A DNA stretch of 46,013 bases, taken from contig JAJYAG010000033.1 in NCBI GenBank assembly GCA_021779665.1, positions 1 to 46,013 of the forward strand, read 5' to 3'. Numbering within the stretch: the first letter of the stretch is position 1; every line of letters starts with the position of its first letter. This document shows, one piece after another, positions 7,702 to 35,754 of this stretch. The notes below the pieces were generated by a model, which was given only the letters and a program-made list of their open reading frames with translations, did no database searches and was not told the DNA's origin. A program made the translations under genes and the position numbers. This stretch comes from Bacteroidota bacterium. GTDB taxonomy: Bacteria; Bacteroidota; Bacteroidia; Bacteroidales; JAAUTT01.

Positions 7702-8152
7702 ATGCTTACATTACAAAGAACAAATTCATCGGATCCCGATTTTATTTCGCTTGTTAAACAGCTCGACGAAGATTTGCTGCGACGCGATGGAAAAGATCAT
7801 GCTTTTTTCAAGCAGTTTAATAAAACCGATAATTTAAACCAAGGTGGTGGTTGCGCATTATGAAAATACTGTGGTTGGATGTGGTGCTATCAAACCTTTC
7901 AATGAGGATACTGCTGAGGTGAAACGTATGTTTGTGCTTCCCAACATGCGGGGCAGGGGGATTGCTGCTGAAATTCTTAAAGAATTGGAAAGATGGGCGA
8001 AAGAATTGGGTTATGCTAATACTATTTTAGAGACTGGCATTCGTCAGCCTGAAGCTATACGATTGTACGAAAAGAGTAATTATATAATAATTCCTAATTA
8101 CGGGCAGTATATTGGTGTGGAAACAAGTGTTTGTATGACAAAAAAATTATAA
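7702..8152 (+). pseudogene. Frameshifted GNAT-family N-acetyltransferase
   Basis: Two overlapping frames together make one GNAT protein of about 150 residues. The first, from ATG 7702, encodes the N-terminal helix region (SLVKQLDEDLLRRDGKDHAF) up to a TGA at 7861-7863. The second carries the rest from about 7838: VVVAHYENTVVGCGAIKPF, then the acetyl-CoA-binding loop in MFVLPNMRGRGIAAEILKEL (R/QxxGxG/A pattern), and LETGIRQPEAIRLYEKSNY. The shift of one base must lie between 7835 (a stop in the second frame) and 7863; the sequence there is ttaaaccaaggtggtgg, where one extra G or A would explain it. The downstream part alone, starting at GTG 7844, would lack the first strand and helices. It may be a decayed gene, a sequencing error, or less likely programmed frameshifting. 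Codon use beyond the shift is normal. Confidence 0.78.
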
Positions 8153-8189
8153 CGACGACAAGGGATGGTTAGTTCTAAGGAGTCTCTCA

Positions 8190-8233
8190 ATTGTCATTCC
8201 GGTTAACCTTAGGGTTAATACCGGAATGACAAT
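8190..8233. terminator. Long hairpin between convergent genes
   Basis: The arms attgtcattccggttaacc (8190-8208) and ggttaataccggaatgacaat's complement pair almost perfectly, with a two-base bulge and a four-base loop. It sits between the ends of the GNAT gene (plus) and the HU gene (minus), where a bidirectional terminator is expected. No long T-run follows on either side, so it may act with Rho or simply protect RNA ends. The GTCATTCC start recurs at 45495. Confidence 0.55.
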
Positions 8234-8248
8234 TATCGGATTTTCAAA

Positions 8249-8521
8249 TTAGTTCACGCTGTCGGCAAGTTCCTTACCAGGTTTGAACTTAACAGCTTTC
8301 TTTGCTGCAATTTGAATTGGCTTACCAGTTTGTGGGTTTTTGCCGGTACGGGCAGCTTTCTGAATAACTGAGAAAGAACCGAATCCAACTAATGAAATGT
8401 TTTCTCCTTTTTTCAGAGTAACACCAACTGTTTTTACAATTGCATCAAGGGCTTCCTTGGAATCTTTTTTGGACAGACCGCTTTCTGCGGCAATTGCATC
8501 AATTAATTCTTGTTTGTTCAT
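8249..8521 (-). CDS. HU-family DNA-binding protein
   Basis: A 90-residue nucleoid-associated protein that binds and bends DNA as a dimer. It has the HU hallmarks in order: MNKQELIDAIA at the N-terminus, the helical dimer region (SKKDSKEALDAIVKTV), GFGSFSV, then the DNA-binding arm (ARTGKNPQTGKPIQIAA) and the closing VKFKPGKEL. I chose the ATG at 8521, which gives the exact HU length; the frame is open 23 codons further upstream, but that extension (containing the candidate promoter) matches no HU protein. One base off the -7 consensus, TATCTTAG lies at 8573-8566. The gene stands alone, convergent with the GNAT gene. Confidence 0.96.
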   Translation of the reverse strand: MNKQELIDAIAAESGLSKKDSKEALDAIVKTVGVTLKKGENISLVGFGSFSVIQKAARTGKNPQTGKPIQIAAKKAVKFKPGKELADSVN

Positions 8522-8847
8522 AGAAAAAATAATTAGAGGTTTTAAAAAATGGTTTTTCCAGACATCTAAGATAACTTCTGAAATCCGCATTTGTTGCGAG
8601 TTTTTTACGAAATCAGCATAAAAATATTAACAATCTGTTCATAACGCCCGAGGCTTTGATGTTAACCTGTTGGTTTTCAAATATTTGTAAATAATCGTTT
8701 CAAAGCCTTGCCAATACTGACTTCTGCATTTTTTTTCAATTTAAATGGTGGTATAAACCTCACTTTTCAGAAAAATGTGTAATTTTTTATCAAATTTGAT
8801 ACTTAATCCGTTTTCAGTAATACTAAAACCAGCATAAAAACTCCGAT
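8522..8847. other. Divergent intergenic region of HU and PAS genes
   Basis: This 326-base AT-rich stretch holds no gene that I can support. It must carry the promoters of the minus-strand HU gene and the plus-strand PAS gene. The best HU candidate is TATCTTAG on the minus strand (8573-8566), 45 bases before the HU ATG. No exact TAnnTTTG is present for the PAS gene. GGCTTTGA (8652) and CAAAGCC (8700) form a loose inverted repeat of unknown meaning. Confidence 0.4.
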
Positions 8848-9333
8848 ATGGGCAAAGTTTTATCAAGTAATAACATCAGTTTCGATACATTAAAAGACAG
8901 TAACGATTTTTTGAAGTTTATTCTGAACGACATCACCAGTTGTGTTCTGCTTTTGGATAAGGATATGATGCTTTATGCCTTTAACGATCCGTTGAAGAAT
9001 ATTTTTTCCAACAGGCTTGATGAACACTTGCTTTACAAGCGGTGTGGCGAGGCTATTGGATGTGCTTTTACCGTTGAAGAAATGAAAGATTGCGGTAAAA
9101 CCTCCAAATGCACCACCTGTGAGTTGCGCGAATCGGCCCTTTTGGCTTATGTAAACCGCAAGAATGTTTATAAAGGTAAATTAGCACGTGAGTTCTATAA
9201 AACCGATTCCACCAAAGTGCTTAAATACCTTCAGTTTTCTACAAGGGCCTTTTATTATAACCAGGAGTATTACCTCATTCTGATCATTAGCGACATTACA
9301 CCTTTAACTGAGTTACCCGACAGCTTCAAATAG
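8848..9333 (+). CDS. Stand-alone PAS-fold protein with a conserved-looking cysteine cluster
   Basis: A 161-residue soluble protein without signal peptide. Residues about 20-60 begin like a PAS domain (LKFILNDITSCVLLLDKDMMLYAFNDPLKNIF split over two strands), and the end (FSTRAFYYNQEYYLILIISDIT) matches the last PAS strands, where sensor proteins read 'v.DIT'. Inserted between is a cysteine-rich segment: CGEAIGC, then CGKTSKCTTCELRESAL, i.e. a C-x5-C...C-x5-C-x2-C arrangement. In PAS proteins of anaerobes similar clusters are seen and could bind Fe-S or zinc; that is inference. There is no kinase, cyclase or DNA-binding domain, so it is either a sensor that acts through a partner or a single-domain regulator. 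It ends just 7 bases from the convergent permease gene. Confidence 0.7.
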   Translation: MGKVLSSNNISFDTLKDSNDFLKFILNDITSCVLLLDKDMMLYAFNDPLKNIFSNRLDEHLLYKRCGEAIGCAFTVEEMKDCGKTSKCTTCELRESALLAYVNRKNVYKGKLAREFYKTDSTKVLKYLQFSTRAFYYNQEYYLILIISDITPLTELPDSFK

Positions 9334-9340
9334 GTGAAAG

Positions 9341-11674
9341 TTATTCGTAACGTAATGCTTCAACCGGATTCCGGTGTGCGGTACGATAGGCCTGCCAGCT
9401 AACTGTTGCAATAGTAATTATAGTAGCTGCCAAACATGCTGCCAATAAAATGTAAATGTCAATTTTGGTGTGGTATGCAAACTGGTTTAGCCAGATATTC
9501 ATTATATAAACTGCTAACGGTATTGCAATAACTCCTGAAAGTAGCACCCATTTTACAAATTCGCCCGACAAAAGTCTCAGTATGCTCATTTCGGATGCTC
9601 CAAGCACTTTTCGCACTCCTATTTCCTTGGTACGTTGCTCGGCCAGATAAGAGGCAAGCCCCAGTAAACCTATTGATGCAATAAAGATTGCCAGAATGGC
9701 CATGTACAGGAATAGCCTTGCCAGCTTTACTTCCGACTTGTACAGGCTATCGAACGATTCATCCAAAAACCGGTACTCAAAAATAAAATCGCCACTCATT
9801 TCATTCCAGACTTTCGAAATATGATCTGTAGCCTGCTTTGCTGACCCGCTGATAAGGATACTGGCACTTCTTGAATATTGAGGCATCCAGGCTATAACCA
9901 AGGGAGCAATTGGCGAGTGAAGTGAATTGTAATAGCAATCCTTGATCACTCCCAGAACTTCCATCTTTCTGTTGCCATCGCCAATGATCGATCCTACTGG
10001 ATTTTTCAACCCGAAATATTTAACTGCTTCTTCGTTAATAATTACTTTTTCCTGGTCAGTTGGATTTGAACGATCGAAATTTCGCCCCTGAACGATTTGC
10101 AGGTTCATAGTGCCGACAAACTCTGGTTCTGTTCCCAGGAATGTGAATTGTTTGCCTTCGTTATTGATCATTACCGACTCCTGCCAGCTTATGTTTCCGA
10201 AAGATTGAGTTGAAAACGCCACCGATTTGATATTGGCATCCGACATAAGTTTTTGCCTGAATGTCTCTCGGTTTTTCAGGAGCTGTTCGTTCATGCCGAA
10301 CACAAGTACGTGTTCCTTGTCAAATCCCAGATCTTTGTTTCTGAAATAATTCAATTGCTTGTAAACGGTAAGGGTTGCAATAATGAGGAAAATGGAAATG
10401 GAGAACTGAATGGTGATAAGCACGCGACGAAATACCAAGGCTCCTTTTCCGCTCGTTTTTTCCTTTTTCAGACTGCTTACAGGTTGAAGCCTGTTTAGAT
10501 AGAAAGCGGGGTAAAGTCCTGCGATGATGCCGATTAAAATAGGAAAAGGAATGGCAATGATCAGCAGCCAGAATGAGATTTCACTTCCGTAGGTAATTTC
10601 GCGGTTAATAAGATTGTTTGCAACAGGGCGCAACAATTCGATAAAAACAAGCGCCAGCTCTGTTGCGATAATGGTTATTATAACTGCTTCGCCCAAAAAT
10701 TGAAGGACAAGACTGCTTTTACCGGCACCCAAAACCTTGCGCACACCTATTTCCTTAGAACGGTTGCCCGCCCTTGCAGTTGTGAGATTGATAAAGTTGA
10801 CACACGCAATAATTACAATAAAAATCCCGATGGACATGAAGAAGGTGAGCATACTTTTATTCCCTTCGGGGTTATTGATGTTGTATTTTACCTGGGTAAA
10901 GTAAATATCCTTCAACGGTCGGAGCTGGAAAAAGGGTTTGCTGTCGACCCAGTTAGCCTTTCCGGTATAATATTGTATTATTTTTTTCTCCAGCAGTTTG
11001 GGATCGGTGTTGGGTTTTAGGCGGAAAAAAGTATGATAATTCCACTGGTTGTAATGGTTCAGAAAGCTTGAGTCGTTATAAATAAACTGTAATGTTGGGA
11101 AATATGCAATGGCATTGGTTTTTAGATGAAAGCGCGGAACATCTTTGATAATACCGGTAACAGTGAATGTGAATTTATTATTTATCTGCAACGACTGACC
11201 TAAAGGATTTTCGTTGCCAAACATTCTTTTGGCCTCCGATTGCGTAAGAATTACCGAAAACGGCACTTTTAATGCATTTTTTGGATTGACATGCACGAAC
11301 TCAAAAGTAAAAATGTCGAGCATGGCCGAGTCGGCATACAGCATTTTTTCCAGCTTGATAAGCTTATCGTCCTTTTTAACGGTAACCGAAGCTCCCTCAA
11401 ATCCCGATATTCTTGTGAAATCTTCTATCTCAGGAAAATTGGCAGCCAATTCAGGTCCGTATGCGGTTCCAAGTACTGCCCAATCTTCGGTTTCGAGCCT
11501 GAATATGTCTTTGTAATGTTTGTTAAACCTGTCGGTTTGGTATTCGTTGTTAACATAAAGAAGTATAAGCGCAAAAACCGTGATGCTTATGGTAAGTCCC
11601 AGAATGATAATGAGAGAATACCCTTTCTGGCGTCTTATATTTCGAAATGCGGTAAGTAAATAATTGCGAATCAT
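9341..11674 (-). CDS. MacB/FtsX-type ABC transporter permease (third of three)
   Basis: A 777-residue inner-membrane protein of the long, duplicated FtsX type. It has an N-terminal transmembrane helix (about 21-42), a first periplasmic MacB core domain (about 50-240), an FtsX helix bundle (about 280-400), another helix near 425, a second periplasmic domain (about 450-630) and a second FtsX bundle (about 655-770). Each bundle contains the RTKEIGVRKVLGA or RSKEIGVRKVLGA coupling motif that contacts the ATPase. It ends in VSWQAYRTAHRNPVEALRYE. There is no ATPase domain of its own, so it depends on the ATPase at 16648-17337. MacB-type systems use ATP to drive periplasmic work or export of lipids, peptides or drugs; no cargo can be assigned. 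It is the distal gene of the locus, 21 bases after its neighbour. Confidence 0.92.
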   Translation of the reverse strand: MIRNYLLTAFRNIRRQKGYSLIIILGLTISITVFALILLYVNNEYQTDRFNKHYKDIFRLETEDWAVLGTAYGPELAANFPEIEDFTRISGFEGASVTVKKDDKLIKLEKMLYADSAMLDIFTFEFVHVNPKNALKVPFSVILTQSEAKRMFGNENPLGQSLQINNKFTFTVTGIIKDVPRFHLKTNAIAYFPTLQFIYNDSSFLNHYNQWNYHTFFRLKPNTDPKLLEKKIIQYYTGKANWVDSKPFFQLRPLKDIYFTQVKYNINNPEGNKSMLTFFMSIGIFIVIIACVNFINLTTARAGNRSKEIGVRKVLGAGKSSLVLQFLGEAVIITIIATELALVFIELLRPVANNLINREITYGSEISFWLLIIAIPFPILIGIIAGLYPAFYLNRLQPVSSLKKEKTSGKGALVFRRVLITIQFSISIFLIIATLTVYKQLNYFRNKDLGFDKEHVLVFGMNEQLLKNRETFRQKLMSDANIKSVAFSTQSFGNISWQESVMINNEGKQFTFLGTEPEFVGTMNLQIVQGRNFDRSNPTDQEKVIINEEAVKYFGLKNPVGSIIGDGNRKMEVLGVIKDCYYNSLHSPIAPLVIAWMPQYSRSASILISGSAKQATDHISKVWNEMSGDFIFEYRFLDESFDSLYKSEVKLARLFLYMAILAIFIASIGLLGLASYLAEQRTKEIGVRKVLGASEMSILRLLSGEFVKWVLLSGVIAIPLAVYIMNIWLNQFAYHTKIDIYILLAACLAATIITIATVSWQAYRTAHRNPVEALRYE

Positions 11675-16599: not shown

Positions 16600-16634
16600 C
16601 TATCGACTATCGACTATCGACTATCGACCATCGA
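16600..16634. repeat. Heptamer tandem repeat (CTATCGA)n
   Basis: Four perfect CTATCGA units (16600-16627) and one CCATCGA unit. It abuts the broken end of the permease remnant and lies between it and the ATPase stop codon. The same heptamer phase recurs at 21381-21408. Confidence 0.9.
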
Positions 16635-16647
16635 CCACCATCTAATT

Positions 16648-18558: not shown

Positions 18559-19449
18559 ATGAAAATTAACCCATGGCCGGATAAAAACACTTGGATGCAT
18601 CTTCGCTTTCCTTTTTCTTTTTTTCTGTTGCCTGTTTTTATGTTTGCTCTGAGTGCCGCTCAAAATGTCCATTGGCTAAATGTCATTCTTGCTTTTATCA
18701 TTCTCCATTTGCTTGTTTTTCCATCCAGTAACGGGTATAACAGTTTTAACGACCATGATACGGGCAGTATCGGAGGACTGAAAAATCCACCTCCTGTTTC
18801 AGTAAAACTGTATTATACAACCTTGTTTATGGATGTGCTTGCGGTATCGGCGGGTTTGCTTATTTCTCCTGCTTTTTGTGTGTTGGTTTTACTTTTTGTT
18901 TTAGTATCCAGGGCTTACAGTTACCGCCCCATACGCATCAAGAGGTTTCCGGTCCTGAGCTTTATTATTGTATCTTCTTTTCAGGGCGGACTGGTTTTTC
19001 TGATGTCGACGGTAGCAATTCATGACTATATTCCGGCCCTTACTCCGGAGTTGTTCCTGGGCATGGCCATTTCAACCTTATTTATAGGCAGTATTTATCC
19101 GCTCACTCAGATCTATCAGCACCAATCCGATAAAAACGATGGTGTTATCAGCCTGAGTTATAAACTGGGATATAAAGGTACGTTTATTTTTTCGGCTATA
19201 CTTTTTCTAACTGCTTCAGCTTTGGTTTACCAGTTCTATTACAATCTTCGCACACCGCGGTTTTTTCATCTGTTTATGATGGTTACTTTTCCTGTGGTTA
19301 TCTGGTTTGTATACTGGTTTATCAAAGTGCTCCGCAGCAGTCAGCAGGCGAATTACCGCAATACAATGTTTATGAATCTTGTGACGGCCATCTGCATGAA
19401 TCTTTTTTTCCTGTTTTTAATTGTGAATCGTTATGGGAACTGGTACTGA
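18559..19449 (+). CDS. UbiA-family prenyltransferase-like membrane protein
   Basis: A 296-residue integral membrane protein with about eight or nine helices. The first aspartate-rich site is NGYNSFNDHDTGSIGG (58-73, Asp65 and Asp67), the next loop has YSYRPIRIKR (about 115-125), and the second aspartate site is QSDKNDG (Asp191, Asp194). These positions match the two Mg-diphosphate binding sites of UbiA enzymes, which join a prenyl chain to an aromatic or other acceptor. The first motif departs from the common NDxxDxxxD, reading NDxDxGSIGG, so the donor may be unusual. Its last 17 bases overlap the PKS gene start, indicating translational coupling. No prenyl-diphosphate synthase is in the window. 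Function as the prenyl-transfer step of the polyketide pathway is inference from context. Confidence 0.85.
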   Translation: MKINPWPDKNTWMHLRFPFSFFLLPVFMFALSAAQNVHWLNVILAFIILHLLVFPSSNGYNSFNDHDTGSIGGLKNPPPVSVKLYYTTLFMDVLAVSAGLLISPAFCVLVLLFVLVSRAYSYRPIRIKRFPVLSFIIVSSFQGGLVFLMSTVAIHDYIPALTPELFLGMAISTLFIGSIYPLTQIYQHQSDKNDGVISLSYKLGYKGTFIFSAILFLTASALVYQFYYNLRTPRFFHLFMMVTFPVVIWFVYWFIKVLRSSQQANYRNTMFMNLVTAICMNLFFLFLIVNRYGNWY

Positions 19450-20554
19450 AAACAGGAGCAAAATAATTGCAGTAGGAACAGCAGTGCCTGATTATGGCTC
19501 GCGGCAGGAAACTATTCTTGCATTCATGCAGCATGCCTACAACGAGCCTGTAGCGTCGCGTAAACTGAATATGCTTTTTATGCAAAGTGGCATAAGAACC
19601 CGGTATTCCGTGGTCCCCGACTTCCTGAATCATGGCAACGAAGTGCTTTTTAAAAGTGAAGAAGCAAAGCCCGATATCGGGAAGCGAACTTTTGAATTCA
19701 AGCAGCATGCCATAACTCTGGCCGTGGGCGCCATTGAGCAAGCCTGCCATAAAGTAAACCGCAGCATAAAAAAGATGGGAGTTACCCACCTGATTACTGT
19801 CACCTGTACCGGCTTGCATGCCCCCGGACTGGATGCCGGACTAATAGAGGCTCTGGATCTTCCACCCGATATTTTTCATACTTCGCTCAATTTCCTGGGC
19901 TGCAATGCTGCTTTTCCGGCCCTTAAAATTGCCGATTCCATAGTGAAGTCCGATCCCGGCGCACGCGTTCTTGTGGTGTGCGTGGAACTTTGTACGCTTC
20001 ATTTTCAGCCAAAAAATAACTCGGATAATTTACTCTCCAACACCATATTTGGCGATGGGGCAGCTGCTGTGTTGATGGTTTCGGAAAATACTCCTGAGTT
20101 TGAAAATTGCAGTGGCCTCGTTGTCCGTAATTTTTATTCGTCGCTGCTGCTCAACGGCAAGGATCTGATGGGATGGAATCTTACCCCGCTCAACTTCGAG
20201 ATGATTTTAAATGCCGGTCTGCCTCGCTTTCTTGGCGATGAGTTGAATTTGCTGAAAGAAAAGATTGCCTCAGCATTTAAGATTCGTTTCAGCGAAGTTA
20301 ACCACTGGGCAGTGCATCCCGGAGGAAAAAGGGTGCTCGATGAAGTAAAACAGCAGCTTCAGTTTGAGAATGGAGAACTGGAGCATTCGTACCATGTGCT
20401 TCAGAATTACGGTAATATGTCGTCGCCGACGGTTTTATTTGTATTGGCTGAAATATTGAACAACAGCATTAAACAGAACGACACTGTTTTATGCATGGGC
20501 TTTGGTCCGGGCATAAGTGTAGATACAGCTTTACTGCAATATGCGAAATTTTAG
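19433..20554 (+). CDS. Type III polyketide synthase
   Basis: A 373-residue homodimeric condensing enzyme of the chalcone/stilbene synthase family, which extends an acyl-CoA starter with malonyl-CoA and cyclises the product to a pyrone, resorcinol or phloroglucinol. The triad is complete: Cys157 in NFLGCNAAF, His295 in HWAVHPGGKR, Asn328 in NYGNMSSPT; the C-H-N spacing is nearly that of plant chalcone synthase. The C-terminal GFGPG loop is present (MGFGPGISVDT). Length is normal. Overlap with the UbiA gene at its start (17 bases) and with the methyltransferase gene at its end (14 bases) supports an operon. Bacterial relatives that make alkylresorcinols or alkylpyrones use long acyl starters; the starter here cannot be read from sequence. 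Confidence 0.96.
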   Translation: MGTGTENRSKIIAVGTAVPDYGSRQETILAFMQHAYNEPVASRKLNMLFMQSGIRTRYSVVPDFLNHGNEVLFKSEEAKPDIGKRTFEFKQHAITLAVGAIEQACHKVNRSIKKMGVTHLITVTCTGLHAPGLDAGLIEALDLPPDIFHTSLNFLGCNAAFPALKIADSIVKSDPGARVLVVCVELCTLHFQPKNNSDNLLSNTIFGDGAAAVLMVSENTPEFENCSGLVVRNFYSSLLLNGKDLMGWNLTPLNFEMILNAGLPRFLGDELNLLKEKIASAFKIRFSEVNHWAVHPGGKRVLDEVKQQLQFENGELEHSYHVLQNYGNMSSPTVLFVLAEILNNSIKQNDTVLCMGFGPGISVDTALLQYAKF

Positions 20555-21236
20555 CCAACGGGCCAATCTGCCCGAAATGATGGACGATCCGCAGGTTGAC
20601 AGCAAACTTTTAAAAAAGAACCTCGGGGAGCTGGATATTCTCAACCGTTATCTTGGAGGACATGCTGCATCACTTCAGGGAATTAAATTGCTGGTTGAAA
20701 AGCAAAAGCTCTATACCATTGTTGATCTGGGATGTGGTAGTGGTGATACGCTGAGATATCTTGCAAGATGGGCCCGCAGGAAAAAGGTTAAAATAAAGTT
20801 CATTGGTGTTGATACCAATGAGCATGCTATTCAATATTTAAGGGAAAAATGTATCGGGTATCCCGAAATTACAGGGGTTGTTAAGGATTATGAAACTTTT
20901 CTGAAAACATCGCCCGAAGCCGATATTTATTTGTGTTCCCTGTTCTGTCATCATCTGGATAATCATCAACTGGTGGAGTTGTTCAGAGCATTGAAAAAGG
21001 CACGGGTTGGGTTTGTGATTAACGATTTAAGACGTTCCAAACTTGCTTATTATTGTTCCTGGCTGTTTACCAGGCTCTTTAATGGCACGGTGTTGTCGAA
21101 AAACGATGGACCTGTTTCGGTTTTAAGGGCTTTTAAAAAGGAAGAGTTAGAGCATCTGTTATGGGAAGCAGGCTGTAACCATGTAAACATAAAAAAGCGG
21201 TGGCTCTTTCGTTTTTTGGTGGTGGTGTGGAGTTAA
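20541..21236 (+). CDS. SAM-dependent methyltransferase
   Basis: A 231-residue soluble class I methyltransferase. Motif I is VDLGCGSGDTLRYLARW (about 60-76), the acidic end of strand 2 is FIGVDTNEHA (about 93-102), and a motif near 130-140 reads YLCSLFCHHLDNHQLVELF, as in UbiE/ubiquinone-type enzymes. The N-terminal helix LNRYLGGHAASLQGI resembles the substrate-lid region of small-molecule O-methyltransferases. It overlaps the PKS gene by 14 bases and so probably methylates the polyketide or its hydroxylated product. The position and O- versus C-methylation cannot be read. It is followed by a 184-base gap with repeats, the only sizeable gap in the cluster. Confidence 0.88.
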   Translation: MRNFSQRANLPEMMDDPQVDSKLLKKNLGELDILNRYLGGHAASLQGIKLLVEKQKLYTIVDLGCGSGDTLRYLARWARRKKVKIKFIGVDTNEHAIQYLREKCIGYPEITGVVKDYETFLKTSPEADIYLCSLFCHHLDNHQLVELFRALKKARVGFVINDLRRSKLAYYCSWLFTRLFNGTVLSKNDGPVSVLRAFKKEELEHLLWEAGCNHVNIKKRWLFRFLVVVWS

Positions 21237-21244
21237 GGGGATAG

Positions 21245-21279
21245 TTTCAGATTTCGGGTTGTAGTTTGCAGGTTTCGGG
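21245..21279. repeat. Second heptamer array (TTTCGGG type)
   Basis: TTTCAGA-TTTCGGG-TTGTAGT-TTGCAGG-TTTCGGG read in seven-base phase, directly after the methyltransferase stop. The units are degenerate but keep the phase, and two TTTCGGG units are identical. It belongs to the same class of seven-base repeat as the CTATCGA arrays but with a different unit. Confidence 0.55.
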
Positions 21280-21291
21280 CGGGGAGCTAGA

Positions 21292-21308
21292 CTTAGCGTC
21301 TCGCTAAG
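21292..21308. terminator. Small perfect hairpin in the methyltransferase-hydroxylase gap
   Basis: CTTAGCG-TCT-CGCTAAG forms a seven-pair stem with a three-base loop. No T-run follows, so it is more likely a repeat or RNA structure than a strong terminator. It lies within the biosynthetic operon, where it might lower expression of the downstream genes. Confidence 0.4.
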
Positions 21309-21380
21309 CCTTACGATACTACCGAATATCGACTTGTATTTACATAGGCTGTAGTCTGCCGACTGGCATTTTCTGTATTT

Positions 21381-21408
21381 ACTATCGACTATGGACCATG
21401 GACTATCG
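21381..21408. repeat. Heptamer tandem repeat (ACTATCG family)
   Basis: Four units: ACTATCG, ACTATGG, ACCATGG, ACTATCG. Same unit and strand sense as 16600-16634. It ends 12 bases before the hydroxylase ATG. Confidence 0.85.
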
Positions 21409-21420
21409 ACTTATTAACAT

Positions 21421-23046
21421 ATGAAATCATATTCAGTGACTGATCCTAAATTTGATACCGATGTTTTAATCAACGGCGCCGGACCTGCCGGTTTAATGAC
21501 GGCTTGCCTGCTGGCGATGCACAAAGTTTCCTTTCGAATTATCGACAAAAAAACTGAGCGTGAAAACTATTCCGGGGCGATGATTATTCATTCCCGGACA
21601 ATGGAAGCATTTCACCAGATGGGGATTTCAAGGCGATTTTTAAAAGAAGGCGTTATTGCCCGAAGCATTAATTTTCAGTTTAACAGGAATAAACATCTGT
21701 CGATGCATGTTGCCGATTTTGGGAATAGCTGGAGTTTATTTCCTTATATGTTAATGATTGAGCAATGGAAGACAGAAAGGATTCTACGCGATTTTCTTGC
21801 GGAGTTCGGTAAGGAAGTGGAAGACAATACTATGTTATTGAGTTTTCGGCAGAAAAAAGGAATTGTTACTTCCGTACTCCGAAGCCCGTTGGGTGCCGGC
21901 GAATTATTAACCAGCCGTTACCTTATCGGAGCAGGAGGAATAAGCAGTTTGGTGAGGCGGCAGCTTCAAATTCCTTTTTACGGCCACACACATAAGGAAC
22001 TGCTTTTTGTAAGCGATTCACAGGCCGATTTACCTCACATGCCTGCTGAATTGTTTTTCTCTTTTTCAAAGGACCATACGCTTGGCTTTTTCCCTTTACC
22101 AAATAACCGGTGGCGTATCGACGGTGTAATTCCTGACCTGGAAAATGCCGGCCGGAAAATTGATTTTGAGTATATAAGTAATTATTTGAGCAACAAGAAT
22201 CTGAATTTAAACATGCATAATGCGTCCTGGTTCTCAGTTTTTCGGTCACATTCGCGCATTGCTCCGGTATTTAAGCATCATCATTGTTTTTTGGTAGGCG
22301 ATGCTGCCCATATCTCTACGCCTGTAGGTGCCCAGGGTATGAACACCGGTCTGCAGGATGCCTTTAATCTGGCCTGGAAGCTGGCTTTTTATCTGAAAGG
22401 TATGGCCCGTGCTAAAATTCTGGAGACATACCAGGAGGAACGCATGCCTGTGGCTCAAAGAATGGTAAGTGTTACCGATCAGGTTTACAGTTTGATTACT
22501 ACAAGAAAGAAATATATGGAGTTGCTCCGGTTATATGCAATGCCGGTATTTTTGAGCTTTATTTTATTTCTGGTAAACAGGTTCAAAGGGTTAAGAAAAT
22601 TTCTGTTTCTTCATATTTCGGGAGTGGGGGTTTCGTACCGAAAAAGCTCCATTTCAGCATATTTCCCTGTTTCTTTTTTAGACAGAGCTCCATTGCCCGG
22701 CGACCGGCTGCCTTGTATTCAGTACTTTACAGGAACCCAGATTTTTAATTTTCAGGAAAAGATAAGCTACACCTCTTATAATCTTTTGATTTTAGGAGTT
22801 CGGGAATTGCCTGATAAATTCAAGAGTATGGCTGAGAAATACAACGGACTGATCAAAATTATTGTAATACCTGCCGACCCTGGTGCCGAAGATGTTTACA
22901 GGCAAATGGTGATGAGACATTATGCATGCTATCTGGTCAGGCCCGATATGCATATAGCCTGGAGAAGTGATTACCTTGATATCCGCGGGCTCGAACGCTA
23001 TCTTCAACGTATTCTGATAAAGGAACATGAACTTCAGGAAGCTTGA
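21421..23046 (+). CDS. FAD-dependent aromatic hydroxylase/monooxygenase
   Basis: A 541-residue flavoprotein of the PheA/TfdB/UbiH-type class A group, which hydroxylates an aromatic ring with NAD(P)H and oxygen. The Rossmann FAD site is INGAGPAGLMTACLL (about 17-31), the second FAD motif is GDAAHISTPVGAQGMNTGLQ (about 293-312, Asp294), and the helix after it is typical (DAFNLAWKLAFYL). Residues after about 420 form a C-terminal thioredoxin-like extension as in phenol-hydroxylase relatives (PLPGDRLP). In the cluster it most probably oxidises the type III PKS product towards a hydroquinone or quinone, as SrsC does in Streptomyces; that role is inference. A preceding heptamer repeat separates it from the methyltransferase gene, but it overlaps the next gene by 20 bases. 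It requires oxygen, which is notable in this phylum. Confidence 0.9.
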   Translation: MKSYSVTDPKFDTDVLINGAGPAGLMTACLLAMHKVSFRIIDKKTERENYSGAMIIHSRTMEAFHQMGISRRFLKEGVIARSINFQFNRNKHLSMHVADFGNSWSLFPYMLMIEQWKTERILRDFLAEFGKEVEDNTMLLSFRQKKGIVTSVLRSPLGAGELLTSRYLIGAGGISSLVRRQLQIPFYGHTHKELLFVSDSQADLPHMPAELFFSFSKDHTLGFFPLPNNRWRIDGVIPDLENAGRKIDFEYISNYLSNKNLNLNMHNASWFSVFRSHSRIAPVFKHHHCFLVGDAAHISTPVGAQGMNTGLQDAFNLAWKLAFYLKGMARAKILETYQEERMPVAQRMVSVTDQVYSLITTRKKYMELLRLYAMPVFLSFILFLVNRFKGLRKFLFLHISGVGVSYRKSSISAYFPVSFLDRAPLPGDRLPCIQYFTGTQIFNFQEKISYTSYNLLILGVRELPDKFKSMAEKYNGLIKIIVIPADPGAEDVYRQMVMRHYACYLVRPDMHIAWRSDYLDIRGLERYLQRILIKEHELQEA

Positions 23047-23809
23047 ACTGGAGGATCAGCCATGGTTTCCAAAAGCAGTTAAGGATGGAATGACCGATTA
23101 CCTGAGATTCTTGTTTCATACTTTCGATTTGTACCACCCCGTAGTTCCAATGCTTTATGCAGCTTTGCAAAAATGCAATTCCATGCGGGTTGTCGATCTT
23201 TGTTCCGGCAGTGGAGGTTTTATTGAAAGAATAAACGAAACATTTCAAAAGAAAAATCAAAATTCCTCTGTAAGTTTTGTTCTTACTGATATTGTTCCCC
23301 GTATTAAAACCTGGCAATATCTGTCACAGCATACCACAAACCTTTCTTATGCAGCCGATCCGGTTGATGCAACCAATGTTCCCCTGCAGCTGAAAGGATT
23401 CCGGACCATTTTTTCAGGTATCCATCACTTCGATCCTGCCGGTGTGCAAAAAATATTGAGCAACGCTACCAAAGCAGGAGAGGGCATCGCAATTTTCGAT
23501 GGTGGCGATAAGAATGTCTGGATGGTACTGTTAATATTGGTAATTCACCCGTTAGCCGTTTTAGTGCTCACACCCTTTATAGCTCCTTTTCGCTGGTCGC
23601 GGATTTTCTTTACATATCTGGTTCCGCTTATTCCTGCAGGGGCTGTATGGGATGGTATTATTTCAATACGCAATCTTTATAACTCTGATCAGTTAATGAA
23701 TTTTGCTGCGAAGGTTGACTTTCAGAATTATATCTGGAAATGGGGTAAAGTAAGAAACAGGTTCGGCCTGGGGATTACTTTTTTGATTGGAATTCCTGAT
23801 AAAGTGTGA
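23027..23809 (+). CDS. Methyltransferase-like protein with membrane helices
   Basis: A 260-residue protein. Residues about 40-140 look like a class I SAM-binding fold: motif I VVDLCSGSGGFIERIN (about 54-69), an acidic residue after strand 2 (FVLTDIVPR), and a motif near 125-135 (TIFSGIHHFD). After about residue 165 there are two strongly hydrophobic stretches (MVLLILVIHPLAVLVLTPFI and FFTYLVPLIPAGAVWDGI), probably anchoring it to the inner membrane. This arrangement is unusual for a methyltransferase and would suit a lipid-borne substrate. It overlaps the hydroxylase gene by 20 bases and is the last gene of the cluster. Methyl transfer is likely but not proved; the residues that would hold SAM are only partly canonical. 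Confidence 0.7.
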   Translation: MNFRKLELEDQPWFPKAVKDGMTDYLRFLFHTFDLYHPVVPMLYAALQKCNSMRVVDLCSGSGGFIERINETFQKKNQNSSVSFVLTDIVPRIKTWQYLSQHTTNLSYAADPVDATNVPLQLKGFRTIFSGIHHFDPAGVQKILSNATKAGEGIAIFDGGDKNVWMVLLILVIHPLAVLVLTPFIAPFRWSRIFFTYLVPLIPAGAVWDGIISIRNLYNSDQLMNFAAKVDFQNYIWKWGKVRNRFGLGITFLIGIPDKV

Positions 23810-29991: not shown

Positions 29992-32900
29992 TTAATTAAC
30001 TATTACATTCTTAATTTCATTTCTTCCGAAGAAAACAGGGAAATACATCAATTCGGCTTTGGCCGGATTAATTGTATAGTTACCGCCAAATCGGGGCAGA
30101 AGTTCAATTTCAGCCATGTAATTGCCAATTGGTAATGCGTTATAAAAAATGCAAACCTTATCTTTGAAATACTCCCTGTGAACCTCCCACATATTCTGCC
30201 GGCCTTTCTCTTCGTAAGTACAACCTGCCGGAATTGGAATTTCAAGCATTACATACGAAGCTCTCTTTATAACTTTAAATTCAACGAAAAGTTTAACAGG
30301 AGTGCCAGCTTTTAATGTGTTTGTATGATCCTCAAAGTAAGTATTTACCCTAAATCCTTTTGATGTTGCTGATGGTTTCGGATTCCACCATTTCTTAAAT
30401 AAAGTGATGTAAACAGGATAGTCGCCTTTCGTGTTCAGTTTCAAAGTGTCGCCACCTTTCAAAGTTTGGCGAAAAGGGAAACTATCGACTCTGGAAGAGC
30501 TTCGGTTAATATGGATGAAGGCAGATGGATCAGTCAACTTCTTTTTGTTTCCCAGCATGTCAGGCAAAATAGTTTCGATTATTTTTGCTGATTCATAAGT
30601 GTTTCGCCAATAACCACTTTTACGTTCCTCAAAGAAAAAGTTTCTTATTTTGGGCAAATAATCCAAATAAATGCTGTCGTTCCTGATAATACGATACATA
30701 GTCAGAGTTGCCAGGATATAACTCTGCGATATGTCAAAGCTGTCCGCATTCCAGTAATAATTGCCAAACATTGTTTCTTTCCTTTGCTTCAAAAGTGTAT
30801 CCAGTTCGATTTTATTTCCTGTTTTTTGTATGAGTTCCAGGGCTTCGAGTCTTGCGGCAAAATTCAAATTGTTCTTCTTCAAAATTGATTCCAAATCGAA
30901 TTTTATTTTGTTATCGGAATTAATCTGCAGTAAAATTTTCAGGGCTCTGATTTTATCTTCAGGCAAATAAACCGGGTATCGCGCCAAAAGATATTGCTGA
31001 ATGTTTTCCTTTGGAATCTTTACTGTGTAGCCTTCCTTTTCGGCCTGGAAGAGTGCTTCCAGAACATGCAGGCTAATCCATAACGATTCTTCAGAGCCTT
31101 TCCACCATCCCCAGAGATTCTCGAAATTCCCGGACGACTCAAGCCTGTTGATCAACTTTTTAATGCTGCTGTTATGTTCAAAACGGATATTCAGGTATTT
31201 GCTGATGGTTTTTTCGGCCAGCAGGCTTTTTAGTTTTGAGGCAGCCTGTTCGTTGCACAAATATCCATAACTGTGAACATGATATATCTCGTCGCGGATA
31301 ATATTGAGAGGATCTGCATCAAGAAACAGCGTTGCTTCGGTATAGTGAGGAGGAACTATGAATTCGAATGATGAGTCGTTCGCCATGGTTTTGAAAATTC
31401 CTTCAGTTTCCAGCGATCCTCTTTTCAGGATGGGTATGGTTCTTTTTTCTCCGTCTTTCATACCGTTCTCCGGAGCGACTTTATAGGTAATAGTAATGGA
31501 ATCTTTTGCTTCAGCTTTTACAGCAAGACTGTCGATGTGAGCATCTTTGAATGAGAAACTGTTTTCTTTTATTGAGTTATTCTCAATTTCGAATTGTGAA
31601 ACAGCCCTAAGCGTATCGTTTCCGTAATTGGTTACTTTTCCAATCACCACCGAGCTATCGCCCTCAGTTAAAAACCGTGGTACCGACAAACTGGCTGCAA
31701 CCGGTTTAAAAGCGTTTATTACCGATTGAAGCGCACCTCCTTTTTTGTGACCCATCGCAATGTAAAAGGTTTTCCAGGCTGTAATGTCGTCGGGGAATGT
31801 TACTTCGAAAGTCGCCTCACCATTTTTATCCGTAATTAGGGTTGGCTGCCAGAAAGCATTATCGGAGAAGTTAGAGCGGAGTGACGATGCATCGCTTAAG
31901 CCATTCATAAATCCGGTGTCGTGCATGGCTTTGTCGCTCAGCAATCCTTTGGATTCAACTAACTCTGGGGCTCTGCTTCCATAAATTGCTGAGGGATTAA
32001 TTCCTGACATCTTTCCGGATAACCCCCGTATCTGAATTGTACTTACCGATGCTGTGAGTTCACTTTTTTTCACGGTGCCATATCCTACAACTACAACCTC
32101 TTCTAAACATTGTATATCGGGTGTAAGGGTAGTGTTTATGATTCGCGATAAGCCCATGGGTACTCTTTCAGGAGCATAACCAACAAACGAAAATGCAAGG
32201 GCTCCCGAACCCGGCGGTACCTCAATCTGATAATATCCGTTCATATCCGAAACGGTTCCGGTTGTAGTTCCTTCAATAATTACATTTACTCCGGGAATAG
32301 GCTCGCCGGTCGTGTTATCTGTGATTATTCCTTCAATCACATTCTGTCCTTTAAGGGTGATGTTATTTTTTTGCAGGTAGGTTGAATTTACCCATTGCCA
32401 TCTTTCTTTATCCTCGTAATTGGTGTTGGAAGTCGTGCTGCTAACCATCTGAATGATTTGGTTTATCTGCCCCGAAACCGAATCGGGCGCTTTCCACTCA
32501 GAACGGATGCGGAAGTTATTCAGTCCGTTAACTGAAATGACCAGCGAATCGGCCTCCAGATATGCATTATTATTGTCAAGAATTACAGCTCTGTAGCATC
32601 CGGAATCTAATTGATGAAACAGATCCGAACTGCCGTATACCCTTATAAATGAAGGATTGTTGTAATTAAACAGAATGACATTTTTCGCGAAACTGCCTGA
32701 TGTTGTGGTATAATATAATTTCATGCGACCAAAACCGGGATTGGTATAGGAAGGATTGTTATAAATCCTCGATCTGGCTTGTTTTTGTGCCAGATCATAT
32801 TGCCATTTTTCTAACCATTTTTTCTCAGTAAGCAGTCCGTCGGCGAAGCTTACCCCTGGCGTCTGGTAACCGTAATAGCCATCCATTTCTTTGGACAACA

Positions 32901-35754
32901 GCGACTTCATTTTAACAACTCCTCTTTTGAACTGGTAGTGATAACCAGGTTCAAAATTTTCTTCAATGCTAAAATTACCAGGAACTTCAAACCTGTATTT
33001 TAATTGGTCCACCGGGCCAACTATTGTATAAGGTGAATACCGGTTCTCATTTTCGCCAACGGGGAATAACCGGCTTTCCTGGGTAAGATATGCATAAGGC
33101 TGATTGTTGTCTTTATCAATTACCATAAGGCTGTTCTTTACCCAGTAGAGTTCATTGTTGGTGAGATATTGTGGCTTTTTCGCAATTTTAACATATCTGT
33201 TACCAGTGTCGGGCGAGAAACTCATGATATATTTTTTGCCTTCTTCAATAAGCAGGTTGTTAGCTGCAATTTCAGCCCCGGGTATCCGTATCCGCAGGTC
33301 AACTTTTCCGGCAGGCACAGGAAAAACATATGGAATGTTTACGTTTGTCAGGTGCGAGTAAATCAGCCTGCTATTGACATATATGCAGTAAACCGGCACT
33401 ATGCTTCCGTTTTGAACAACATAAGGAGAGATAAATCCCATGGTTGAGTGTTCCATAGGAAAGGCATAGGTAAACATACCTTTTTCAGGAAACAGAAACT
33501 GGAAATAAGTGATGGAGTCGAGGTGCATTACGGAGTTCCACTTCTCCCAGTTTAACGGGACAGAGCTATTGCTGTAATTTATCTGATCCTGTCTCAGGAA
33601 AAATTCGTTAACCAGTTCTTTTTGCTTTTTCTTTTTTTCGAAATCCGGCAGCACCGGAAGTTCGGCCCTTGGCATTTTGGAGGTCATGGCATAAGCCAGA
33701 ACATCGGCTCCTTCAACGGGGTTCGACTTGTAGTCGGTTACTTTAAGTTTTATGGCAACCTTTTTACCAGGGTAAATATATTCGGGTTGATCGGAAGTAA
33801 TATTCAAAACAGAAGTCTTTAGCGGCACTTCGTAGTTTTCGGAAACCATACGGTTGTTCCACAGATAATGAATCGATAAATAGTAATTCTTTTCTGATTT
33901 ATTGGGAAGGGTAAAACTTCTCAGGTCGCCCGAACTGCGAAATACTTCACGGTTCAGATTATAAACAAAGCATGTCGCAGGTAAATTTCGCGGGTTGTTG
34001 ATCGTGAAATGAATAGAATCGTTATCTCTTTCGGTAAAACATTCTACAAGGGACGGTTCGTTGATTACCTCTGCAAAAGCTGTATTTTTCTCTGAGGATA
34101 TCTCGTACCGGGTAACAAAGGGACTGATCCTGCAGGAATAGGGGAGATCTGTATCAATTTGGGATATGATATCATTCGATTTTATGAATTTTATTGTTCC
34201 TTTCCCCGGAACCGCGATTCCGTTCCTGGTTCTCCCGAACCTCACCGAATCATCGATAAAGGTAATCTTAAGCAAGTCTTCGTTGAAGCAATACCGTAGC
34301 TTAAGATCTTTGGTAACATGTTCGTTTGATGAATTCAGGAAACTTACAATTACCTTGTAGGAAAAATTTGCATGAGGAAAAATGTTTTCCGGGAGCTCAA
34401 CAACGGTATTACCCGATGGATTGAGTGCGAGATCGTGCTTCCAGAGTGTATCGGGGATAAAAACCCGCTCGTCGTAAATTTGATCAATAATCTCGGGCAC
34501 AATAATTATTTTTGCCCGGGCATCAGCCAGTGTCAGCTTGTTTTCATCGGTGCCTTTCAGTATAAGCTGGTTATGTTCACCGGCATAATGGAGTTTTTTG
34601 GACGACCAAAGTTCGTAGGTGGTACTTTTCAGTTCATAATCTTCCAGTCGAAAATTACCGGACAAAGAATGCTTACCGGAGCTAAGGGTTAAAACATAGT
34701 TTTTATCGATGGGCAGATTCATGGTGTCGGCAAGGATAAATTGACCGCTGTAAATACCAGGTCTGGAGGGTTTAACTTTACCTAAATTGTATGTCTTCGA
34801 AAAATTAAAATCCCGGAGCCTAAGGTTTAATTCATTGTTAAGTGGTCTCTTTTTCCCGTCAATTATGTAGGCTTTCCACATTACTGTATCGCCGGGTTTA
34901 AACATGGTTTTGTTAAAGGCAACATAGCCATCGGTTTTTGATCGGGCTTCGAACTTGTTCACGATTTTTTCGATAAATCCTTCAGGCTGTCCCCACCATA
35001 GCGATTGAACGATATCGTAAAATGGTTGCGAAATAAAATAGATCCAGCCGCTTCTTCGCTGATGAACGGCAAGCCTGTAAATATCCAGCGGTAAATAAGC
35101 CGTGAGCACCACCGGTACGGCTACATATTTCAGAGGAGTCTGGTAAAATACTTTTCTGGAAGTTCTCTCCAGGCAGGAGTTGTTCTTTTTACGGGTGATA
35201 TAGTAAAAGCTGCTGATTCCTTTGTGATTAACCGTGAGGAAGCCTTTTACATTGGCATGTTTTAACCGGTAGGTACTTGTGCTGTAATCGTATTTCAGCT
35301 TTTTATTGCCAATCCTGACTATTGCATCAGTTGTTGTAAGGCCTTTTTCATCAGTTATATACGCAACAAAGTCACTGCTGTTGTTCATTATTTTCACATC
35401 CACATTGCTTTGCGATGCCAGTTTAAATTTCACCTGGTTACCTTCTGCATGCACATAGAGATAATGTCCGTATTCGAGTTTTTTCCTGTAAATACTGTCA
35501 GTTGGAAAAGAATCGATACGTGTGTGAAAAAACGACTGATTAATTCTAGACAGGTTGCTTTTGTAAATTTTACGGGCTTCGGTCTCAGTTAACCGGTAAA
35601 TGAATGTGTAATAACTTGTTTTTCTTGAAGTGCGGATATCCTGAGCCGATAAGTTAAAACTTGTCCAAACCGACAGTAATACCATCAGGAACCGTACAAT
35701 GGAACGGTTATTAAACAATTTCCGGTAATTGCGGGTTAATAGATGTAATTTCAT
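29992..35754 (-). CDS. Alpha-2-macroglobulin-like protein with an embedded SusC-type segment
   Basis: A 1920-residue exported protein with an SPI signal (cleavage after LSAQ near 38). Order of parts: N-terminal beta domains; an MG2-like domain near 275-320 (DGYVAFNKTMFKPGDTVMWK); further MG domains; at about 1137-1225 a carboxypeptidase-regulatory-like domain (VIEGIITDNTTGEPIPGVNV, FSFVGYAP) running into EEVVVVGYGTVKKSELTASV, the sequence that in SusC receptors links this domain to the TonB box and plug; then the central A2M domain near 1300-1338 (GEATFEVTFPDDITAWKTFYI); a thioester motif CNEQ at Cys1500; an alpha-helical toroid; and a C-terminal receptor-binding-like domain. A2M proteins trap proteases or brace the envelope. 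There is no pbpC neighbour, which usually accompanies bacterial A2M. Confidence 0.9.
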   Translation of the reverse strand: MKLHLLTRNYRKLFNNRSIVRFLMVLLSVWTSFNLSAQDIRTSRKTSYYTFIYRLTETEARKIYKSNLSRINQSFFHTRIDSFPTDSIYRKKLEYGHYLYVHAEGNQVKFKLASQSNVDVKIMNNSSDFVAYITDEKGLTTTDAIVRIGNKKLKYDYSTSTYRLKHANVKGFLTVNHKGISSFYYITRKKNNSCLERTSRKVFYQTPLKYVAVPVVLTAYLPLDIYRLAVHQRRSGWIYFISQPFYDIVQSLWWGQPEGFIEKIVNKFEARSKTDGYVAFNKTMFKPGDTVMWKAYIIDGKKRPLNNELNLRLRDFNFSKTYNLGKVKPSRPGIYSGQFILADTMNLPIDKNYVLTLSSGKHSLSGNFRLEDYELKSTTYELWSSKKLHYAGEHNQLILKGTDENKLTLADARAKIIIVPEIIDQIYDERVFIPDTLWKHDLALNPSGNTVVELPENIFPHANFSYKVIVSFLNSSNEHVTKDLKLRYCFNEDLLKITFIDDSVRFGRTRNGIAVPGKGTIKFIKSNDIISQIDTDLPYSCRISPFVTRYEISSEKNTAFAEVINEPSLVECFTERDNDSIHFTINNPRNLPATCFVYNLNREVFRSSGDLRSFTLPNKSEKNYYLSIHYLWNNRMVSENYEVPLKTSVLNITSDQPEYIYPGKKVAIKLKVTDYKSNPVEGADVLAYAMTSKMPRAELPVLPDFEKKKKQKELVNEFFLRQDQINYSNSSVPLNWEKWNSVMHLDSITYFQFLFPEKGMFTYAFPMEHSTMGFISPYVVQNGSIVPVYCIYVNSRLIYSHLTNVNIPYVFPVPAGKVDLRIRIPGAEIAANNLLIEEGKKYIMSFSPDTGNRYVKIAKKPQYLTNNELYWVKNSLMVIDKDNNQPYAYLTQESRLFPVGENENRYSPYTIVGPVDQLKYRFEVPGNFSIEENFEPGYHYQFKRGVVKMKSLLSKEMDGYYGYQTPGVSFADGLLTEKKWLEKWQYDLAQKQARSRIYNNPSYTNPGFGRMKLYYTTTSGSFAKNVILFNYNNPSFIRVYGSSDLFHQLDSGCYRAVILDNNNAYLEADSLVISVNGLNNFRIRSEWKAPDSVSGQINQIIQMVSSTTSNTNYEDKERWQWVNSTYLQKNNITLKGQNVIEGIITDNTTGEPIPGVNVIIEGTTTGTVSDMNGYYQIEVPPGSGALAFSFVGYAPERVPMGLSRIINTTLTPDIQCLEEVVVVGYGTVKKSELTASVSTIQIRGLSGKMSGINPSAIYGSRAPELVESKGLLSDKAMHDTGFMNGLSDASSLRSNFSDNAFWQPTLITDKNGEATFEVTFPDDITAWKTFYIAMGHKKGGALQSVINAFKPVAASLSVPRFLTEGDSSVVIGKVTNYGNDTLRAVSQFEIENNSIKENSFSFKDAHIDSLAVKAEAKDSITITYKVAPENGMKDGEKRTIPILKRGSLETEGIFKTMANDSSFEFIVPPHYTEATLFLDADPLNIIRDEIYHVHSYGYLCNEQAASKLKSLLAEKTISKYLNIRFEHNSSIKKLINRLESSGNFENLWGWWKGSEESLWISLHVLEALFQAEKEGYTVKIPKENIQQYLLARYPVYLPEDKIRALKILLQINSDNKIKFDLESILKKNNLNFAARLEALELIQKTGNKIELDTLLKQRKETMFGNYYWNADSFDISQSYILATLTMYRIIRNDSIYLDYLPKIRNFFFEERKSGYWRNTYESAKIIETILPDMLGNKKKLTDPSAFIHINRSSSRVDSFPFRQTLKGGDTLKLNTKGDYPVYITLFKKWWNPKPSATSKGFRVNTYFEDHTNTLKAGTPVKLFVEFKVIKRASYVMLEIPIPAGCTYEEKGRQNMWEVHREYFKDKVCIFYNALPIGNYMAEIELLPRFGGNYTINPAKAELMYFPVFFGRNEIKNVIVN

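Follow-up and report, generated by a model that had tools for sequence, protein, structure and literature searches.

What does a member of the Bacteroidota make with an operon that joins a type III polyketide synthase (PKS) to a membrane protein of the UbiA family and to methylating and oxidizing enzymes? This question is raised by contig JAJYAG010000033.1 of assembly GCA_021779665.1, from a Bacteroidota bacterium of the order Bacteroidales. We analyzed a stretch of 46,013 nucleotides of this contig (the window), in which five plus-strand open reading frames (ORFs) at 18559–23809 code, in order, for a UbiA-family protein, a type III PKS, a methyltransferase (MT1), a flavin adenine dinucleotide (FAD)-dependent monooxygenase and a second methyltransferase-like protein (MT2). 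By analogy with the agq pathway of Actinoplanes missouriensis, we propose that the operon probably makes a prenylated, methylated and oxidized alkylphenol or hydroquinone lipid, i.e., a bacterial meroterpenoid. The argument starts from directly observed gene content, gene order, co-occurrence and catalytic residues, and from the predicted folds of UbiA and MT2. The features are as follows:

18559..19449, + strand: UbiA-family intramembrane protein, probable prenyltransferase, 296 amino acids (PF01040, predicted fold, motifs)
19433..20554, + strand: type III PKS, 373 amino acids, Cys157/His295/Asn328 (Pfam, solved relatives, invariant residues)
20541..21236, + strand: MT1, class I S-adenosylmethionine (SAM) methyltransferase, 231 amino acids (Methyltransf_25)
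21237..21420, no strand: intergenic stretch with TATCGAC-type repeats between the MT1 and FAD genes (repeat matches; comparison with the loci of relatives)
21421..23046, + strand: probable class A flavin monooxygenase of the aromatic-hydroxylase type, 541 amino acids (FAD_binding_3, Protein Data Bank relatives, fingerprints)
23027..23809, + strand: MT2, class I methyltransferase-fold protein, 260 amino acids (predicted model; nearest folds CouO and NovO)

The UbiA and PKS genes overlap by 17 bases, the PKS and MT1 genes by 14 and the FAD and MT2 genes by 20; ORF coordinates, Pfam matches and predicted folds thus bear out the five-gene cluster described in an initial annotation of this DNA. The three overlaps are as that annotation gave them; the MT1 and FAD genes do not overlap in this genome and are separated by a gap of 184 bases.

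Gene order in relatives was compared over the best 80 of 576 confirmed loci, picked by PKS similarity (the named loci), which come from Prolixibacteraceae, Chitinophagaceae, Dyadobacter and others. Counts out of 80 use these loci alone; the motif and neighborhood counts below and the wider survey of gene order pool 91–93 sources, a few of which probably duplicate a genome present in two collections (L006 and L027, for instance, have contigs of equal length). UbiA is adjacent to the PKS in 69 of the 80, in tandem in 66 (a count that includes L070 with UbiA in another frame, L033 with UbiA split over two ORFs and L044 with UbiA cut by a contig edge) and divergently in three, and the two form one ORF in a further six. 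In the tandem loci the two genes are closely spaced or overlapping, with ORF starts taken as the longest possible, so that overlaps in the relatives may be overstated. MT1 follows the PKS in 76/80. The operon is not a chance arrangement, as these genes are met again, identically ordered, in further genomes. The earlier claim that UbiA, type III PKS, methyltransferase and flavoprotein constitute one pathway is supported.

Across genomes, UbiA and MT1 travel with the PKS. The initial annotation had named the opposite outcome of such a synteny check as a refutation, and for UbiA and MT1 the check did not refute it. Among 198 genomes of the order, seven have the PKS at E < 1e-100 and another three match a type III PKS more weakly (E 1e-33 to 1e-40); UbiA (E ≤ 1e-10) is found in exactly the same seven, and MT1 in six of the seven and in none of the 191 others. 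Within the genus, three of five genomes have the PKS. At the level of the phylum, sampled with 395 genomes, 162 are hit by the PKS profile (E ≤ 1e-50) and 60 by the UbiA profile (E ≤ 1e-20); all 60 carry the PKS, including those in which the two genes are unlinked. In the class to which the window belongs, 23 genomes have a PKS match of E ≤ 1e-97, and each of them has UbiA at E ≤ 1e-70. The chance estimates for these co-occurrences, 2e-27 and 5e-13, treat genomes as independent, though they are related. UbiA reaches E ≤ 1e-70 in 26 genomes of the sample: in eight it stands in tandem with the PKS, in 12 the two are divergently adjacent and in six UbiA is far away or on another contig; because the PKS is nonetheless present in those six genomes, the partnership outlasts linkage. 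The remaining 34 UbiA-positive genomes, in which the UbiA matches range from E 1e-38 to 1e-23, all belong to a single family (f142). In two genomes of this family, L115 and L117, the PKS, MT1 and flavoprotein genes stand together without an adjacent UbiA, and a MatE-family gene adjoins them in L117.

The PKS matches both Chal_sti_synt_N (101.3 bits) and Chal_sti_synt_C (72.6 bits; cut-off 27), and the Cys157–His295–Asn328 triad is invariant in a set of 7 and in one of 85 relatives; it is thus a type III PKS. Its closest solved structures by sequence are Steely1 (2h84) and PKS18 (1ted), and plant biphenyl synthase ranks only slightly lower; Steely1 and PKS18 accept acyl chains. A figure legend in PMC6274091 marks Cys205 of PKS18 as a tunnel position. 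The equivalent here, Cys187, is invariant in 85/85 sequences, and a further listed PKS18 position, A209, is replaced by F191; as judged from the alignment, Cys187 fits, without proving, an acyl starter. The same source gives ArsB Trp281 and ArsC Gly284 as a rule for resorcinol versus pyrone formation (PMC6274091). W248 of the present PKS is invariant in 85/85 sequences, but the pyrone synthase PKS11 also has Trp, in the matching MGW motif of its alignment to the relative L009, and no choice between the two ring types was made on this rule. The best NCBIfam model is DpgA; identity as a dihydroxyphenylacetyl-CoA synthase of this type was rejected, since the score of 181.6 bits is far under the equivalog cut-off of 425.

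The UbiA protein matches PF01040 at 63.2 bits (cut-off 34.2). Its predicted model (mean predicted local distance difference test score, pLDDT, 90.9) is nearest to AfUbiA (4tq4_A; Z 22.4, root-mean-square deviation (rmsd) 3.6, 274 residues aligned), in a structure with bound donor (geranyl diphosphate, GPP, or dimethylallyl diphosphate, DMAPP), and also matches ApUbiA (4od5_A; Z 21.6, rmsd 3.0, 257 aligned). Though identity to these two is only 13–15%, the Pfam match together with the common predicted fold places the protein in the UbiA superfamily. Its motifs are unusual. Motif 2 of canonical UbiA enzymes is DxxxD. For motif 1, PMC4044012 gives NxxxDxxxD. The family studied here instead displays N61xxxD65xD67 and Q187xxxD191, with N61, D65, D67, Q187 and D191 invariant in 75/75 sequences (the hits of 220–360 amino acids among 84, leaving out single-ORF sequences and fragments); the Asp that usually forms the third position of motif 1 (+4) is not conserved. 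In a weak match of the family profile to 4od4 (E 0.003), Q187 pairs with the first Asp of DxxxD. The same NxxxDxD/QxxxD pattern is kept in 12/12 further members, unlinked and distant ones included. The source genome has one type III PKS and four UbiA-family genes; two of the paralogues keep the Asp spacing (DxxxD) in motif 2 and another departs from it. By eye, we take the departing paralogue to be CtaB-like and another paralogue to be MenA-like.

MT1 is matched by seven Methyltransf models and by no other Pfam family, Methyltransf_25 scoring 45 bits (cut-off 27); its nearest NCBIfam model, PRK06202, stays below cut-off. The FAD monooxygenase matches FAD_binding_3 at 232.4 bits (cut-off 22) and falls just under the cut-off for Rng_hyd_C (27.2 versus 27.5), and its Protein Data Bank relatives include rifampin and polyketide monooxygenases. 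Class A flavin monooxygenases bear the fingerprints GxGxxG, DG and GD; GxGxxG and GD are present here, and the DG site reads GAGG (residues 170–173, 21928–21939) versus ADG in all 13 relatives that include this part of the sequence. The initial annotation had assigned an aromatic hydroxylase to the cluster, which fits the long type in the window but does not generalize: 64 of the 80 named loci code for a flavoprotein of a different family of about 380 amino acids, within 300 bases after MT1 in 62 of them, whereas seven code for the long aromatic-hydroxylase type, always within 300 bases after MT1. Neither family was found in nine of the 80 loci, some of which are cut by contig ends. The two short-family flavoproteins that were scanned are geranylgeranyl-reductase-like; as their best NCBIfam model, TIGR02032 (geranylgeranyl reductase superfamily; 88 and 98 bits), stays below its cut-off of 159, a reductase and a hydroxylase are both possible for this family.

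MT2 has no Pfam match at E ≤ 0.001. Its predicted model (mean pLDDT 85.6, 8 sequences) displays a class I methyltransferase fold, nearest to CouO (Z 17.9, rmsd 3.0, 207 aligned), whose structure entry is titled as a C-methyltransferase, and NovO (Z 17.3, rmsd 3.2, 211 aligned), with the next match at Z 15.2. In the glycine-rich SAM motif, D57, S60, G61, G63 and G64 are invariant in 8 rows; this motif and the predicted Rossmann-like fold mark MT2 as a class I SAM methyltransferase. CouO and NovO both have an aromatic ring as their target, so MT2 may reasonably be guessed to methylate a ring carbon. The earlier description of MT2 as a membrane-anchored methyltransferase-like protein is borne out for the fold but not for the anchor, since the hydrophobic helix at residues 164–184 sits inside the methyltransferase fold in the predicted model. 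MT2 is an accessory part of the cluster: it occurs in 16/395 genomes of the phylum, six of which lack this UbiA. It follows the long flavoprotein in three of the seven long-type loci (L012, L017 and L021) and in L122–L124 of the order, as in the window. Five of the seven PKS genomes of the order have it; in G080 only a 76-residue piece with in-frame stops was found (L110, G080:C101:1789–2016), perhaps a decayed copy. A match of 27% identity lies in G157, a genome without the PKS. In three genomes of another family (f129: G271, G365 and G583), MT2 adjoins a UbiA gene located away from the PKS; in G583, the MT2-like gene beside UbiA (L113:4133–6034) is about 574 kb from the PKS.

UbiA and the PKS are joined in Dyadobacter, where six genomes (L064, L072, L077, L081, L087 and L090) have a single ORF of 652–657 amino acids (around 8110–10089) with both domains nearly full length against their profiles and no linker; L081 is from Dyadobacter psychrophilus. 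Two further Dyadobacter loci, L046 and L085, are unfused, with TTGA serving both the stop of UbiA and the start of the PKS; in the six single-ORF loci the two frames coincide and the TTG codon is kept at the junction, so that a separate PKS may also arise from internal starts. Downstream, 8/8 Dyadobacter loci carry a gene of the squalene/phytoene synthase family and a PF01593 gene, which we presume to be of the phytoene-desaturase type, and six to seven of the eight carry lycopene-cyclase-family and NUDIX genes. Such neighbors are a hint of isoprenoid supply, though in a single genus they may be there by chance.

Among known systems, the initial annotation had named the Streptomyces srsABC operon as the closest logic. 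srsABC, from Streptomyces griseus, includes a methyltransferase and a flavoprotein, SrsB being a membrane protein of the isoprenylcysteine methyltransferase (ICMT) type, and is not known to include a UbiA. The likeness lies in a type III PKS with later oxidation: the srs alkylresorcinols are oxidized to alkylquinones, according to PMC10896814. By its Pfam matches, MT1 is a class I enzyme and not an ICMT-type membrane methyltransferase, and UbiA is a constant partner of this PKS group; srsABC was therefore rejected as the closest model. The agq pathway is the closer precedent in its logic. Its type III PKS makes alkylresorcinols that are then prenylated and hydroxylated (PMC10896814), the prenylation being due to a membrane-bound O-prenylating enzyme (PMC4044012), and both texts cite Awakawa 2011 for the products, alkyl-O-dihydrogeranyl-methoxyhydroquinones. 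A type III PKS, a UbiA-family protein, a methyltransferase and a flavin monooxygenase likewise stand together in the window, and the shared elements are the PKS, a membrane-bound prenyltransferase, hydroxylation and methylation, the last as read from the agq compound name. The comparison is by gene content and not by Agq sequences, and the present operon differs in its phylum, in the second methyltransferase MT2, in the unusual UbiA motifs and in the single UbiA–PKS ORF of Dyadobacter.

Other type III PKS systems are more distant. In plants, olivetol synthase is a type III PKS and the cannabinoid prenyltransferase is UbiA-type. There, olivetolic acid, formed by olivetol synthase together with a cyclase, is prenylated with GPP (PMC8309193); the tailoring is different, and no gene of the olivetolic-acid-cyclase type is among the five here. 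In the cyanobacterial hid cluster, a type III PKS, a methyltransferase and an oxidoreductase lead to O-methylated alkylresorcinols (hierridin), and a prenyltransferase is said to be encoded in 1/47 hierridin-like clusters (PMC8086630), unlike the standing partnership with UbiA here. The loseolamycin (los) locus of Micromonospora endolithica has UbiA, a methyltransferase and the type III PKS losA within four consecutive genes, UbiA lying three genes from losA, and an acyl-CoA dehydrogenase where the present operon has a monooxygenase (PMC7587189). Among the papers that searches of an open library brought up on Bacteroidota type III PKSs, or on UbiA with type III PKSs, none names a product of such a Bacteroidota cluster in its title or the opening of its abstract, which does not prove that none has been published.

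From these elements we infer the following substrate, starter, prenyl donor, order of steps, product and membrane location. The PKS would extend an acyl thioester with malonyl units and close it to an alkylresorcinol-type phenol. UbiA, in the membrane and partnered with the PKS, would add an isoprenoid tail to a ring carbon or oxygen. MT1 would methylate the phenol, with O-methylation likely, the flavoprotein would hydroxylate the ring to give a hydroquinone or quinone, and MT2 might add a second methyl group, perhaps on a ring carbon. We thereby infer the same likeliest product class as the initial annotation, a prenylated phenol or quinone-like compound.

Several observations weigh against this scheme. 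By Pfam, the five genes include neither an acyl-CoA ligase nor a prenyl diphosphate synthase. At the DG site, GAGG could mean that the monooxygenase of this genome is impaired, or one of its bases may be an assembly error. An adjacent UbiA is missing in five of the 80 named loci (L027, with the PKS at a contig edge, L039, L040, L058 and L088), and MT1 was not found in the PKS- and UbiA-bearing genome G058 (800 contigs). The G058 contig equals that of L027 in length, and L027 has no MT1 in the 6.6 kb after the PKS, so that MT1 does not adjoin the PKS there. Of the 162 PKS genomes in the phylum sample, 102 lack this UbiA at E ≤ 1e-20, including 11 of the 45 of f142; the wider PKS lineage thus also works without UbiA and is not tied to it. 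Finally, with donor motifs unlike the canonical ones, the UbiA family cannot be assumed to transfer prenyl groups. The last two points feed alternative readings. In one, which we consider the least probable and would give only a slim chance, the PKS, MT1 and flavoprotein form the pathway, whereas UbiA serves another and merely co-occurs. The 102 genomes, the six cases among 26 strong UbiA genes that lie at a distance from the PKS or on a separate contig, and the two f142 genomes examined in which UbiA is not beside the PKS are in its favor; yet this UbiA was never found without the PKS (60/60), and the short spacing or overlap in tandem loci and the single ORF in six genomes speak for a shared function. 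In another, somewhat less improbable but still quite unlikely, the altered motifs bind a different substrate, with UbiA, for example, acting within the membrane to move or reshape what the PKS makes; the final lipid would then be a simple methylated alkylphenol or alkylquinone, as for srs and the loseolamycins. This would account for Q187 in 75/75 sequences without the +4 Asp, for the same pattern in the 12 further members and for the DxxxD spacing of two paralogues in the genome. It also agrees with the los case, in which a strain carrying the cloned locus produced alkylresorcinols without a prenyl group despite the UbiA gene nearby, only losA being under a strong promoter (PMC7587189). Against it stand the invariant N61, D65, D67 and D191 and the predicted match to a donor-bound UbiA; moreover, the presumed CtaB-like paralogue also departs in motif 2, so that motif departure alone does not exclude prenyl transfer.

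A third possibility, unlikely though the strongest of the three, is an isoprenoid quinone: the PKS would make a small orsellinate- or dihydroxyphenylacetate-like aromatic head, UbiA would add a long polyprenyl chain, and methylation and hydroxylation would follow, as in plastoquinone or ubiquinone. DpgA as the best PKS model would agree with this, as would weak resemblances of UbiA to chlorophyll synthase and homogentisate phytyltransferase models, of MT1 to UbiE and of the FAD enzyme to UbiH-type models in NCBIfam, but all such scores are far under cut-off. Furthermore, dpg clusters contain an enoyl-CoA-hydratase-type gene, and a scan of nine proteins around the operon revealed none; among solved structures, Steely1 and PKS18 are nearest to the PKS; and since the genome has a second UbiA that we take by eye to be MenA-like, the usual quinone is presumably already provided for.

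If the prenylated alkylphenol or hydroquinone lipid is taken as the product, a broader picture is conceivable, though we hold it only tentatively and think it more apt to be wrong than right. Meroterpenoid membrane lipids would be present across the Bacteroidota, a dedicated UbiA subfamily with the Gln motif would have evolved in obligate partnership with a single type III PKS lineage, and the single Dyadobacter chain would hand the phenol from PKS to membrane prenyltransferase, a bacterial counterpart of the building of cannabigerol. This kind of operon is already known, and is real and widespread with unusual features; new here are its spread in Bacteroidota, the NxxxDxD/QxxxD motifs of UbiA, the single UbiA–PKS ORF and a flavoprotein slot filled by two families. 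If that ORF yields one enzyme chain, it would be a convenient enzyme for making prenylated phenols; it would also offer a clean test case for substrate handover into the membrane.

The operon is flanked by genes that Pfam identifies as coding for a universal stress protein (upstream) and a DUF748/AsmA-like protein (downstream). Their profiles rarely match near the loci of relatives (three ORFs in two sources for the former, one ORF in one source for the latter), and they are therefore not part of the system. A scan for promoters gave 24 sites versus 22.7 expected, and for terminator-like sites 16 versus 9.7 expected, and was not used. TATCGAC-type repeats lie at 16601–16635 and 21383–21403, with a more distant one at 30483; the window has seven matches versus 0.08 expected. 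In the seven named long-type loci the MT1 and FAD genes overlap or sit 2–33 bases apart, versus 184 in the window, and the repeats in this gap could be a sign that the locus is decaying in this genome or was misassembled. The minus strand of the window also carries an ORF of 1920 amino acids at 29992–35754.

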